Positions 41,278 to 45,958 of a DNA stretch of 64,000 nt are shown here, piece by piece. The stretch's first letter is position 1. Every line of letters starts with the position of its first letter. The position numbers and the translations under genes were made by a program. The stretch is from assembly GCA_018436725.1 (NCBI GenBank), contig JAHDKT010000022.1, positions 62,001-126,000 on the forward strand. Direction: 5' to 3'. The stretch comes from Synergistaceae bacterium (GTDB lineage Bacteria > Synergistota > Synergistia > Synergistales > Aminobacteriaceae). The notes below the pieces were generated by a model, which was given only the letters and a program-made list of their open reading frames with translations, did not search any database and was not told the origin of the DNA.

Positions 41278-44259
41278 TTATCGCTTGAGGTTGATCAGCT
41301 CTTCAAGCACCTGGTCGCTGGTGGTGATCATGCGCGCGTTCGCTTGGAAGCCTCTCTGGGAGGTGATCAGCTTGGTGAACTCCTCGGTGAGGTCGACGTT
41401 CGACATTTCAAGCGAGGAACCGACGATCGACCCCGCGCCGCCCTCCTGGGGCGAACCTATCTGCGCTATCCCCGAGTTGTTGCTTTGCGTAAAAGCCGAG
41501 TTGCCTATCTTCACAAGGCCGGCTGGGTTGGAGAAGAGCGCCAGCGCAACGCGGTACAGCGGGATGTTCTGTCCGTTGCTGTAGATACCGTTGACCGTTC
41601 CGTCCTTAGCCACAGCGAAGTCCGTCAGCACGCCCATCGAGTAACCGTCCTGGTAGTAGCCCTTCGTCGTGAACTCGGAACCGTACTGCGTTACTCCGTC
41701 GAGCAGCTCTTTCTGGAAACTCTGGCCGGAGAAATCGAGCTTGATTGTCGATTCGCGGGCACCGACCTCGTCGAACTGGACAGTGATCTCCGGAGTCGGA
41801 TTGTACATACCGGTGTCGCTTGTATCCAGTTTACCATCCGGGCCGAAGCGAAGCAGACCTGTATTTTCGGATAAAGACGCCTCGCCGTTGGGAAGCCACG
41901 CTCTCCAGCGCCAAACGCCGTTGTCCAGCTTCTCCCACGAGACTTCCAGGGTATACGGATTCCCGAGCGAGTCGTATACATCAACCTTCGCGTTGTGAAC
42001 GTTGGCGATCCGCTGGTTCACTGTCGCGAGCGCCTGTTCGTTGCCCTTGGTGACAGGGACGGAGAAGGTATTCGTGGTGGTAACAGCGGCTGTCGGGTCC
42101 CATATTTTCATAGTAAATGCACTGCTTCCGGCCTCGTCGTAGTCCACCACATAGCTGGTTCCGTTACTGTCTGTTACTGTTTGGAAGTTGACGTACTTCC
42201 CGACTTCGTATGTAAAGGTTTCAGCGGCAGTACCATTATTGAACGTCAAGATCCCCGTCGCAGGATCATACGAAATATGGGCGGCATTATACGTCTCGCC
42301 GCTGGGCAGAGTGAGCACAGGATCGCCCCCCACCGGCACCAGCTGAAGTCTTCCGGAGGCATCAAGACCGTTCATGCTGAAATTTACGGTCGCAGGAACT
42401 CCTGTACCGGAAAATGTCAGCGTCATGAAGTTATTCGCCGCTGTCCCTTCAGTGGGAGTCACCGCATAGTTAGTACCATTCACGATAACCTCGGAACTCG
42501 CCGGTACTATCCCCATGTACTTTCGGAAGTTATAGGTCTGGATTTCCAGAAAATCATCGTTACCCGCTACTCCGGGAGTTCTGTCTCCCAAGATTGTCAT
42601 CCTGTAATCTCCGCTTCCCAGCGAATCGAATTCCGTCCTCACCGAGCCTCCTCCCGCTGGAACCAGATTGCCGGCCAACGGGGATGCTGCGGCAACAGCC
42701 TCCGTTCCCATCTTAATCCGAGATCCTAGCGCATATGTCCATGCATTGGGAGCAGGAGTGGTTAAATCGTTGAGGACAAGGCTACCATCCGCATCGGTAG
42801 CTCCGGGAGTATACACTCCCTGATACGTTTTTCCATCCAGGACGAAGGTTGAAGCAGGCACCAACACTACCGATCCCGTTCCATTCAGTCCGGCGTAGTT
42901 CAACTGGAGAGTTCCAGTGTTATTCGGGTCGTTGCGGTCGACGAACTTGAGCGTGGCGTAACCGCTGTTCGGGTTACCTTCGGTGATCGTGACGTCGTAC
43001 GCTTTTCCGCCGATTCCGACGTTCTGCACGATCGTTGGCTGGATACCCACTCTGTCTGTAACTTGCGAAGAATCGACGATCTCCACGGTGCTGGTAAGCT
43101 GGACTCCCTGGTTCCCTGTAGCGTTGCTGATGGTAACGAAGGCGCCGCCGGCGAACCCTCCAAGGCGGGTGATTCCGTCGACCGCTGTATCGGGAATGGC
43201 GAACGTCCCGTCGTCGTTCATCTGCACCGTGTATTCGAACATCGCCATGTCGCCCTTGTAGTCCTCGCCCCAGAGACGAAGTGTTCTATACCCTTCCTGC
43301 CCGGCGGTGGTGATATCCGTAAATTCCGCTAGGTACGAAAAGCTATTCGTTCCGTCCTTGATGGTGAGCGTCTGATAGTCCATTTGTTTCTCGAGGTTGA
43401 GAGTCCACTCGTCGGGGTTCGTGGGGTCTATGTTGGTCAGCGTGAGGACGCCCGTAGCGGAGTCGAAGGCTACTGTGTATACGCTTCCGTCGATTTCAAA
43501 GGGTGTTTCGGATGCAAGCATCGGGCGCCCGTTGGACTGATCCACTCCCGTCAGTTTCAGGGTCAACGTCTGTCCTCCGATATTCATCGTCATGAAGGCG
43601 TCGGCGCTCATCCCTTCCTGCATGGTCACATCGTACTTCTGATTGTTCAGAGTCGCCGCGGTGGAGAAGTTGTTCGCCGTAAGCCCCATCGGAAGATAGG
43701 TCGCGGCCCGGCCGTCGAGGTTGCAGCGATATCCGACCACCGTGGTCTGGCGGGCTTCCATCTTCTGGCCGGTGGGTATATTGATGTCGGTCAGCGAAGA
43801 ACCTTGGTTGAACTGTAGAGGATCGATCGGATCGCGGACTATCTGGTAGCCCTGGAGCTTGTACCCCGTTCCGGCCTGCGCGAGGTTGCTGTCTCCATCC
43901 AGGGTAAAATTCCCGGCTCTTGTAAAGAGACGGTTGTTCCCGTCCATGACGACGAAATAGCCGTCGCCCTGGATCGCGAAGTCGGTGCGGCTTCCTGTAT
44001 ACTGTGTAGTCCCCTGAGTATGCAGAACCTCTATTGCGGAGACTTGCATGCCGAGTCCGACCTGCTTCGCGTTGACGCCTCCGCGTTGATCGTTCGGCGC
44101 CATCGTACCGCTGGTGTTCTGATAGAGCAGATCCTGGAAGGTAATGTTGGATCGTTTATACCCTGCTGTATTGACGTTGGCTATGTTGTTGCCGACAACG
44201 TCGAGAGAAACCTGATGTCCTCTCACGCCCGACACGCCCGACATAAGGGATCGTAGCAT
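41278..44259 (-). CDS. flgE: Giant flagellar hook protein FlgE (first of two)
   Basis: A 993-residue hook protein, more than twice the usual length. Normal D0/D1 parts lie at both ends: residues 1-180 (MLRSLMSGVSGVRGHQVSLD, NNIANVNTAGYKRSN, MEARQTTVVGYRCNLD) and 755-993 (KVDVYDSLGNPYTLEVSWE to the SQRGFQANARMITTSDQVLE C-terminal coiled coil). The region 182-752 is an insertion in the outer-domain position, made of three diverged repeats. The ATG at 44259 has AAGGAGG upstream. It shares about the whole conserved part with the next gene, flgE2. Surface-exposed extra domains are expected to decorate the hook; no key D0/D1 element is missing. Confidence 0.93.
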   Translation of the reverse strand: MLRSLMSGVSGVRGHQVSLDVVGNNIANVNTAGYKRSNITFQDLLYQNTSGTMAPNDQRGGVNAKQVGLGMQVSAIEVLHTQGTTQYTGSRTDFAIQGDGYFVVMDGNNRLFTRAGNFTLDGDSNLAQAGTGYKLQGYQIVRDPIDPLQFNQGSSLTDINIPTGQKMEARQTTVVGYRCNLDGRAATYLPMGLTANNFSTAATLNNQKYDVTMQEGMSADAFMTMNIGGQTLTLKLTGVDQSNGRPMLASETPFEIDGSVYTVAFDSATGVLTLTNIDPTNPDEWTLNLEKQMDYQTLTIKDGTNSFSYLAEFTDITTAGQEGYRTLRLWGEDYKGDMAMFEYTVQMNDDGTFAIPDTAVDGITRLGGFAGGAFVTISNATGNQGVQLTSTVEIVDSSQVTDRVGIQPTIVQNVGIGGKAYDVTITEGNPNSGYATLKFVDRNDPNNTGTLQLNYAGLNGTGSVVLVPASTFVLDGKTYQGVYTPGATDADGSLVLNDLTTPAPNAWTYALGSRIKMGTEAVAAASPLAGNLVPAGGGSVRTEFDSLGSGDYRMTILGDRTPGVAGNDDFLEIQTYNFRKYMGIVPASSEVIVNGTNYAVTPTEGTAANNFMTLTFSGTGVPATVNFSMNGLDASGRLQLVPVGGDPVLTLPSGETYNAAHISYDPATGILTFNNGTAAETFTYEVGKYVNFQTVTDSNGTSYVVDYDEAGSSAFTMKIWDPTAAVTTTNTFSVPVTKGNEQALATVNQRIANVHNAKVDVYDSLGNPYTLEVSWEKLDNGVWRWRAWLPNGEASLSENTGLLRFGPDGKLDTSDTGMYNPTPEITVQFDEVGARESTIKLDFSGQSFQKELLDGVTQYGSEFTTKGYYQDGYSMGVLTDFAVAKDGTVNGIYSNGQNIPLYRVALALFSNPAGLVKIGNSAFTQSNNSGIAQIGSPQEGGAGSIVGSSLEMSNVDLTEEFTKLITSQRGFQANARMITTSDQVLEELINLKR
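42003..43650 (-). repeat. Three diverged tandem repeats in giant FlgE
   Basis: Protein-level repeats inside the insertion. Copy 1 (about 43010-43650) begins YDVTMQEG and has IDGSVYTV then DSATGVLTLTN and EWTLNL. Copy 2 (about 42485-43020) begins YDVTITEG with LDGKTYQG, ADGSLVLND, AWTYAL. Copy 3 (about 42003-42490) begins YAVTPTEG with SGETYNA, DPATGILTFNN, FTYEV. Each first half is followed by a related second half such as YRTLRLWGEDYKG, YRMTILGDRTPG and FTMKIWDPTAAV. Length is about 160-215 residues per copy. Confidence 0.75.
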
Positions 44260-44351
44260 AGCGTATTCCTCCTTAAGCTTTCGTCGAAGATGGCGCAATC
44301 CCTTGCGCGGATCCTTCTGCCCGTCCGTCCGTGGGGGCGTTTGAGTCTTTT
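44260..44351 (-). promoter_or_regulatory. 5' leader of giant flgE with hairpins and ANGGA motifs
   Basis: The leader aligns with the flgE2 leader over about 90 bases. Transcript order: a GCCC/GGGC stem enclosing CCACGGACGGAC; then an outer GAAG(G)AU/AUCUUC helix carrying a GCGCAA/UUGCGC hairpin with GGGA loop; then the AAGGAGG ribosome site. It contains about five A-N-GGA motifs, including one in the ribosome site, the pattern bound by CsrA. Confidence 0.5.
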
Positions 44352-44458: not shown

Positions 44459-44489
44459 AAAAAAGCCCGCGGAAAGGAAAACCGCGGGC
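44459..44489 (-). terminator. Intrinsic terminator between flgE2 and flgE1
   Basis: On the minus strand a perfect 8-bp stem GCCCGCGG/CCGCGGGC with a 9-base loop is followed by six T and then AAAAT. It starts 20 bases after the flgE2 stop. The 249-base spacer up to the flgE1 ATG holds this terminator and the flgE1 leader. I see no convincing promoter between them; a TAAAAT at 44454-44459 lacks a good -35 box. Confidence 0.88.
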
Positions 44490-44508: not shown

Positions 44509-45867
44509 TTACCGTTTGATGTTGATCTGCTCCTCCAGAACCTGGTCGCTCGTATTGATGACGCGCGCATTCGCCTGGAATCCTCTCTGGGCCAGGATAA
44601 GCTGCGTGAATTCTTCGGTGAGGTCGATATTCGACATCTCAAGAGCCCCCCCGATCAACGCTCCCGCGCCATCCTCCATCGGGACGCCGATCCTGGCCAA
44701 ACCGGAGTTGGAACTCTCCTTGAAGACGGTGTCTCCCACCTTGGTCAGACCGGATGGGTTGACGAACGTCGCCAACGACATTCGGTACATGGGAACGTTC
44801 TGTCCGTTGTCGTAGGTCGCCATGACCGTCCCGTTGTTGGTGACCATGAAGCTCTCCATGACGCCCATAGCGCATCCATCCTGATAGTACCCTTTCGTGG
44901 TGAAGGGAGAAGCGTACTGTGTCACGCCTTCGATCGGCGGCTTGTCGAAGGACTCCCCGGCGAAATCGAGCGTGATATCCGAAGATTCCGCGCCGACGGA
45001 GGTAAAGTCGATGGTGATCCCGGGGCTGACATCCGCTCCGGCGGCAGGTTTCCCATCGGGACCGAAGGTGAGCACTCCCCTCTGGACGAACTGCGGCGAC
45101 CCCGCATCGGGCAGGTAGGCCACCCAGCTCCATTCATTATCCTCCTGTTGACCAGTCCTTACCCACAGCACTTCGAGCGTATGCCCTTTTCCAAGCGAGT
45201 CGAAAATCTCTATCTGCGACTTGTGCGAACTCGCAGTAGGGGGAGTCTCCATCGGAGGATCGGCGTACGGATCCCACGCAGCGGGATCCCATGTCGCAGG
45301 ATCGACCACCGGCGCCTTGCTGTCGAGATTGCATCGGAAGCCGACCTTCGTCGTGGTCCGCGCCTCCATCTTCGAACCGATGGGGATGCTGATGTCGCTC
45401 AGCGATGAGCTTCGATTGAACTTGGTGGGATCGTTGGGGTCGGCGACCATCTGGTACCCCTGCACCCTGTAGCCCGTTCCCGATTGCACGATCTTGTTCT
45501 CCGAGTCGAGGGTGAAGTTGCCGCCTCTGGTGAAGAGACGGTTGTTTCCGTCCGTCACGACGTAGTACCCCTCTCCCTGTATGGCGACATTCGTATCGCC
45601 GCCTACGTAATTGATATTCCCCTGGGTGTGAATCGTTTCGATCGCGGCGACACGCACTCCAAGTCCAACCTGAAGGGAATTGACTCCTCCTCTTCCTTCC
45701 ACGGGAGGCATCGCGCCTCGGTGGGTCTGGTAGAGCAAATCCTGAAAGGTGACGTTCGATTTCTTAAACCCCACTGTATTGATGTTGGCGATGTTATTTC
45801 CGACGACGTCGAGAAAGGTCTGATGCCCCCTCGCGCCCGACACGCCCGACATAAGGGATCGAAGCAT
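44509..45867 (-). CDS. flgE: Flagellar hook protein FlgE (second, normal length)
   Basis: A 452-residue hook protein of ordinary size. The N-terminal D0/D1 (MLRSLMSGVSGARGHQTFLD, NNIANINTVGFKKSN, then VAIQGEGYYVV) and C-terminal D0 (LDLTEEFTQLILAQRGFQANAR, DQVLEEQINIKR) are complete. A short linker (about 180-205: Pro/Asp-rich WDPAAWDPYADPP) stands where flgE1 has its insertion. I chose the ATG at 45867, 7 bases after GGAGG, over 45873. It follows flgD and its own leader, and is closed by a terminator. Confidence 0.93.
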   Translation of the reverse strand: MLRSLMSGVSGARGHQTFLDVVGNNIANINTVGFKKSNVTFQDLLYQTHRGAMPPVEGRGGVNSLQVGLGVRVAAIETIHTQGNINYVGGDTNVAIQGEGYYVVTDGNNRLFTRGGNFTLDSENKIVQSGTGYRVQGYQMVADPNDPTKFNRSSSLSDISIPIGSKMEARTTTKVGFRCNLDSKAPVVDPATWDPAAWDPYADPPMETPPTASSHKSQIEIFDSLGKGHTLEVLWVRTGQQEDNEWSWVAYLPDAGSPQFVQRGVLTFGPDGKPAAGADVSPGITIDFTSVGAESSDITLDFAGESFDKPPIEGVTQYASPFTTKGYYQDGCAMGVMESFMVTNNGTVMATYDNGQNVPMYRMSLATFVNPSGLTKVGDTVFKESSNSGLARIGVPMEDGAGALIGGALEMSNIDLTEEFTQLILAQRGFQANARVINTSDQVLEEQINIKR

Positions 45868-45958
45868 GCTCATTCCTCCTTGCTGTTTTCTCGAAGACGG
45901 TGCAGTCCGTTGCTCCGATCGCTTCAGGGGCGTCCATCCATGGAGCCGCTTTGTCTTT
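45868..45958 (-). promoter_or_regulatory. 5' leader of flgE2, homologous to the flgE1 leader
   Basis: Transcript order: GGC/GCC stem enclosing UCCAUGGAUGGAC; outer GAAG/CUUC helix with an inner GG(A)GCA/UGC(A)CC hairpin whose loop contains ACGGAC; then AAGGAGG. Four A-N-GGA motifs are present (two overlapping AUGGA, one ACGGA in a loop, one in the ribosome site). Stems are kept while bases differ from the flgE1 copy. Confidence 0.5.

Follow-up and report, generated by a model that had tools for sequence, protein, structure and literature searches.

A giant flagellar hook protein of Synergistota with three outer beta domains in a probably modular insert

Introduction

The flagellar hook is usually viewed as a conserved universal joint with an occasional extra domain. 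Hyper-variable insertions in the hook protein FlgE are established, and the FlgE of Campylobacter jejuni (Cj1729c, 865 aa; PDB 5jxl, 5az4) was termed one of the longest in 2016 (PMC5069557). Its domains D3 and D4 form outer rings, which make the hook 280 Å wide instead of 180 Å, and their removal results in broken flagella (PMC5097172); Salmonella FlgE accepts both as grafts and still supports motility (PMC5069557). Caulobacter FlgE, with a half-barrel D3 of 145 aa, and Helicobacter pylori FlgE2 (5npy) likewise carry an insertion at the D2 position. A related phenomenon is known from the filament: giant flagellins bear repeated outer extensions, form thick filaments, and have arisen convergently in many phyla including Synergistetes (PMC6248924).

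Here we describe a hook protein gene, flgE-long, from a 64 kb stretch of the genome of an uncultured Synergistaceae bacterium; this whole stretch of 64,000 nucleotides is referred to as the window. The encoded protein is likewise long, and C. jejuni FlgE is its best full-chain match in both sequence and fold, but the latter has two extra domains (D3 and D4), whereas flgE-long has three related units and some of its relatives have more. It also differs from the Caulobacter and H. pylori proteins, which have single unrelated inserted domain(s) with no repeat array reported. Like the giant flagellins (PMC6248924), it is an enlarged axial protein whose D0/D1 ends are conserved and whose outer extensions are repeated, although the flagellins belong to the filament rather than to the hook, and to different families. 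A further counterpart is the FlgE insert of other Synergistota, which is homologous to the units described here but present in one copy instead of three, and is undescribed in Pfam. In the literature searched, a scope outside which most subscription journals fall, no report was found of hook proteins with arrays of repeats or with exchanged domains. It hence appears that neither the array of repeats nor its range of copy numbers nor its exchange has been described, as judged from a survey confined to Synergistota.

Results

The flgE-long gene and its insert

The gene flgE-long lies on the minus strand at 44259..41278. Its product has 993 aa and starts at an ATG at 44259 behind AAGGAGG; the span 41278-44259 given by the first-pass annotation is correct. 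The surrounding order fliK, flgD, flgE-short, flgE-long, motA, motB, fliL, fliM is that of a usual hook operon. Residues 1-182 (43714..44259, minus strand) constitute the conserved N-terminal part with the Pfam Flg_bb_rod and D1 domains and are 66% identical to flgE-short. Residues 753-993 together with the stop codon (41278..42003, minus strand) constitute D2 and the C-terminal part of D1/D0 (Pfam FlgE_D2 at 755-873, Flg_bbr_C at 949-991). The annotation had equated both ends with those of the 452-aa neighbour, which agrees with identities of 66% over residues 1-190 and 53% over 752-993. Its block of about 570 residues at the D2/D3 position measures 570 residues (183-752) and sits within D2, with the frame of D0, D1 and D2 intact.

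Membership in FlgE was judged by domains and not by the NCBIfam equivalog score. The D0 rod motifs are present (PF00460, E 2.6e-7; PF06429, E 5.3e-16), as are the D1 domain of FlgE/F/G (PF22692, E 1e-11) and the FlgE-specific D2 domain (PF07559, E 3.6e-14), and TIGR03506 scores 260 bits against a cut-off of 70. The NCBIfam FlgE equivalog cut-offs are missed (best NF004241, 411 bits versus 469), the match being split by the insert. Since flgE-short is also below the NF004241 cut-off (419 versus 469), this threshold is ill-suited to the phylum. Between residues 168 and 755 of flgE-long no Pfam family was found.

In the alignment to C. jejuni FlgE (5jxl), the N-terminal block ends at query residue 183, corresponding to chain residue 180, and the C-terminal block restarts at query residue 730, corresponding to chain residue 586. 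The insertion point is therefore that of C. jejuni D3/D4, and the proposed placement of a repeated surface domain at the D2/D3 position holds. The units have no sequence similarity to D3/D4 in searches of PDB sequences up to E 10, nor similarity of fold at E 0.001.

Three related units

The insert is divided into three units, all on the minus strand: R1 (residues 183-399, 43063..43713), R2 (residues 400-586, 42502..43062) and R3 (residues 587-752, 42004..42501). A BLASTP comparison of the insert with itself gave only the diagonal, and therefore Smith-Waterman scores against shuffled sequences and HH profile comparisons were used. The former yield z values of 9-16, with p 5e-10 for R1-R3 and about 5e-6 for the other pairs. 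Profile-profile alignment (hhalign) gives 92% for R1-R2, 97.7% for R1-R3 and 97.8% for R2-R3, with reversed controls below 2%; the R2 and R3 profiles are built on few sequences. The earlier reading of three diverged repeats is thus borne out by repeat scores that are significant by both methods. All three units are homologous to the insert of related hooks that have a single copy: R1 aligns with it over its whole length and is orthologous in position (one-copy-insert HMM 168 bits; hhalign 100%), while R2 and R3 match the one-copy unit with hhalign probabilities of 97.5% and 99.3%. The possibility that the insertion is simply a common domain of related hooks is accordingly true for one copy and untrue for three.

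AlphaFold2 (AF2) models of the whole protein, based on 34 sequences, have pLDDT values mostly of 80-92 across the insert, at a pTM of 0.53 that leaves the domain arrangement uncertain. The same order of about 13 beta strands is modelled in each of R1, R2 and R3, and R1 alone (33 sequences) reaches a pLDDT of 87.9 and a pTM of 0.84. The predicted unit is a confidently modelled all-beta domain for which no solved counterpart was found: its profile matched no Pfam family above chance and no PDB sequence even at E 10, and its model matched neither PDB folds nor viral structures at E 0.001. Matches of the whole model to the DDB1 propeller had TM-scores of 0.06-0.08 and were discarded. Two candidate origins were likewise rejected, namely a duplicated FlgE_D2 (hhalign 2.5%; 4% for the second half of the unit) and a composition of two similar halves, which the comparison of halves did not support. 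No significant homologue of the unit was found in FlgK, FlgL or flagellin of the same genome. These axial proteins are themselves sizeable, and all are encoded on contig C89: FlgK has 839 aa (L130 11745-14264), a FlgL-like protein has 1012 aa, which is very large for FlgL (L130 14286-17324), and the flagellin has 796 aa (L131 1538-3928).

Copy number across Synergistota

The survey comprised 188 Synergistota genomes, in 123 of which a FlgE C-terminus was detected at E 1e-25; about 100 FlgE frames were read. Their lengths range from 434 to 1488 aa. Inserts fall into short forms of 6-117 aa, a class of 201-292 aa corresponding to one unit, and larger inserts of 309-464, 545-570, 918 and 1071 aa. 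Because most inserts fall at 201-292 aa (typically a single insert of about 215 aa), one unit is the normal state in the order, and copy number varies from none to about six units among relatives. Besides the window genome, two further species in the genus have the three-unit form, at 70-75% identity, whereas two others, G002 and G004, have one unit. A single contig scan retrieved near relatives only.

Clear tandem arrays occur in three genera, g1 (the genus of the window), g24 and g30. In f1g16 and f1g9, FlgE has grown via insertions within the unit and not by clear tandem copies. The protein of the window is not the extreme of the phylum: G123 and G121 encode FlgE proteins of 1335 aa (L089 2144-6148) and 1488 aa (L088 1131-5594), respectively. 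Between the first and the last unit these have repeats of about 140 aa, three in G123 and four in G121; their cores are 95% identical. Hhalign values for the middle repeats are 32-39% against R3, the last units or the first half of the unit, 11% against a whole unit and 0.2% for reversed sequences, which is suggestive of shortened units. An unrelated type of insert occupies the same position of FlgE in f4 genera g45-48 (L093 of G159 and relatives); it comprises 309-545 aa with recurring G..Y...G..W motifs and has no Pfam match.

Different histories of core and insert

In the tree built from the conserved ends, the branching mostly agrees with families and genera, and each of the giants (g1, g24 and g30) lies next to sisters with one unit. 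The transition between one unit and a larger insert requires at least seven changes on this core tree, and holding the giants of g24 and g30 together on it is rejected (p 4e-5). The insert tree is different. In it, g24 and g30 have their first units in one clade (support 100/100), and the last units of these two genera, which belong to other families, join R2 and R3 of g1 (92/91). The inserts of one-unit sisters fall outside the units of the giants, and the AU test rejects an insert that follows the core (p 2e-3 to 3e-15).

Pairwise identities point the same way. The window genome (G000) and G004 are 74% identical in the core and 37% in the insert, whereas G004 and G040, a member of another family, are 65% and 51% identical, respectively. 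G049 and G040, of the same genus, share 72% of the core and 33% of the insert; for G049 and G055, of another family, the values are 63% and 46-48%. Between G001 and G003 the proportion of synonymous sites that differ is about 0.4 over residues 1-400, rises to 0.53-0.87 over 401-735 and then falls again; expressed as dS, R2 is saturated and R3 stands at 1.26, versus 0.4-0.6 in R1 and the core. An unguided scan for synonymous blocks, restricted to codons for identical residues in twelve pairs, detected residues 379-670 in G001/G003 and, in G121/G123, residues 585-1019, at a permutation p of 5e-4, the lowest value attainable. Some other pairs have weaker blocks, partly outside the insert, and 5 of the 12 have none. 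The main caveat is that paralogous units may have been misaligned: diverged units are hard to align, and alignment error, or the comparison of paralogous units, could inflate the tree conflict. Identity figures and synonymous blocks nevertheless agree with that conflict. The ratio dN/dS is 0.06-0.3 wherever dS is unsaturated, including R1 and R3; this is purifying selection, which maintains the units as folded proteins.

The first-pass annotation had proposed stepwise duplication of a surface domain, that is, a vertical growth from one to two to three units by tandem duplication within the lineage and without exchange. The homology of R1, R2 and R3 is what such a history would produce, and a single clade of all nine units of the genus is acceptable (p-AU 0.16). 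Even so, we consider it improbable: a placement of the insert of the sister species G002/G004 among the units of the genus is rejected (p 0.002), R2 and R3 cluster with the last units of other families, and the elevated dS of R2 and R3 in G001/G003 is confined to these units relative to R1 and the core. The conflict between insert and core phylogenies, together with the recombination-like R2-R3 block between close relatives, argues against the proposal and indicates that module exchange built the array at least in part. The tree conflict and the synonymous blocks are most simply read as an exchange of modules, and the insert appears to behave as an exchangeable cassette.

The short paralogue

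Directly upstream lies flgE-short (44509..45867, minus strand), which encodes 452 aa with an insert of only 30 aa and is a tandem paralogue found in each of the five genomes of the genus. This arrangement raises the alternative that the short protein builds the hook and that the giant FlgE is a specialised paralogue, such as an adhesin or a secreted FlgE-like protein. An insert-free short FlgE adjoins the long one also in G033, G121 and G123. In most relatives, however, an insert-bearing FlgE is the sole FlgE found, and in G049 and G057, both single-contig and near-complete, the only FlgE found is a three-unit protein of 983 aa; the two genes are identical, and hence amount to one observation in effect. 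It follows that a FlgE of giant size can serve as the hook protein. The core-tree branch of the giant is also short (0.17-0.19) compared with that of the short paralogue (0.36), and the giant is better conserved in its D0/D1 ends than elsewhere. We thus regard a specialised paralogue as very unlikely. Short insert-free and long FlgE genes occur in tandem in at least three genera (g1, g2 and g30; L064, L088, L089, L040 and the window), and the two-hook-protein arrangement is read from the tree as having arisen repeatedly, since the short FlgE branches separately in each genus.

Leader and intergenic hairpins

Both genes are preceded by a leader with two hairpins. For flgE-long (44295..44334, minus strand) each hairpin has GGA in a hexaloop (CC-ACGGAC-GG and GCA-AGGGAT-TGC) and the pair, which is conserved across the order, stands before the Shine-Dalgarno sequence; the leader of flgE-short (45902..45943, minus strand) has the same form. 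The motif GCAANGGANTGC occurs only twice in the window, at these two leaders, against an expectation of 0.14. In most loci of the order, flgE is preceded by this two-hairpin leader, whose stems change and which has no match in Rfam. GGA hairpins of this kind are the pattern of CsrA translational control, and the leaders are candidate CsrA-type sites on the hook gene. The genes csrA and fliW are located together on another contig. The flagellin leader (L131 1528-1543) contains GGCAAGGATGCC, a CsrA-like GGA hairpin directly before the Shine-Dalgarno sequence.

Between flgE-short and flgE-long, at 44459..44488 on the minus strand, a terminator-like GC-rich hairpin with a loop of 9 is followed by six T. 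It was read directly from the sequence, the hairpin scan being limited to loops smaller than 9. G004 has a similar hairpin. Because of this hairpin and its counterpart, the two genes may be transcribed separately.

Discussion

The best explanation, in which we have good confidence, is a hook protein FlgE with three chained outer beta domains in D2, whose insert is a modular, recombining cassette across the order. D0, D1 and D2 would form the ordinary hook tube. The three all-beta copies inside D2 would follow head to tail and extend outward, forming additional rings D3-D4-D5 around the hook. Homologous recombination, acting in the conserved flanks or at points between units, would replace single units or whole blocks of them. 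Radial projection and a thicker hook are suggested by analogy with C. jejuni, and the large external decorations foreseen by the first-pass annotation are likely, given the insertion point common to D3/D4. The outer layer would probably add contacts between subunits, as D3/D4 do in C. jejuni, and by the same analogy the units may affect force or stiffness. The exposed face, in turn, is presumably under pressure to vary, through recognition by phage, predators or a host.

For the benefit of the added domains, two readings are rated about equal, and each is possible without being probable. The domains may be mainly mechanical, stiffening or strengthening the hook for viscous surroundings, with variation as neutral drift of a tolerant surface. 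The breakage of C. jejuni flagella upon deletion of D3/D4, as well as the acceptance of D3/D4 grafts by the Salmonella hook, is consistent with this (PMC5097172, PMC5069557), but copy-number change within a genus and the exchange of a single middle unit between close relatives exceed mechanical need. Alternatively, the domains may mainly serve to vary the exposed surface towards phage, predators or hosts, like the hypervariable middle of flagellins. The recombination-like blocks in the insert would fit, and flagellins are likewise split into shared and diverse regions (PMC7018530); against it, no dN/dS above 1 was seen in the measured pairs.

Extending the modular cassette reading, we tentatively propose, at somewhat less than even confidence, that the hook exterior of Synergistota is a recombinational system of surface variation, in which in-frame beta modules are gained, lost and swapped, such that the bulk of the hook differs between sister species while the tube is unchanged. 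Within a single phylum the number of units runs from none to about six, a natural series that includes two three-unit members with single-contig, near-complete genomes. The role of hook decorations in stiffness, breakage and recognition by phage or predators is therefore directly testable among relatives whose main difference is the number of units. The exterior of the flagellar universal joint appears to be modular and fast-changing.
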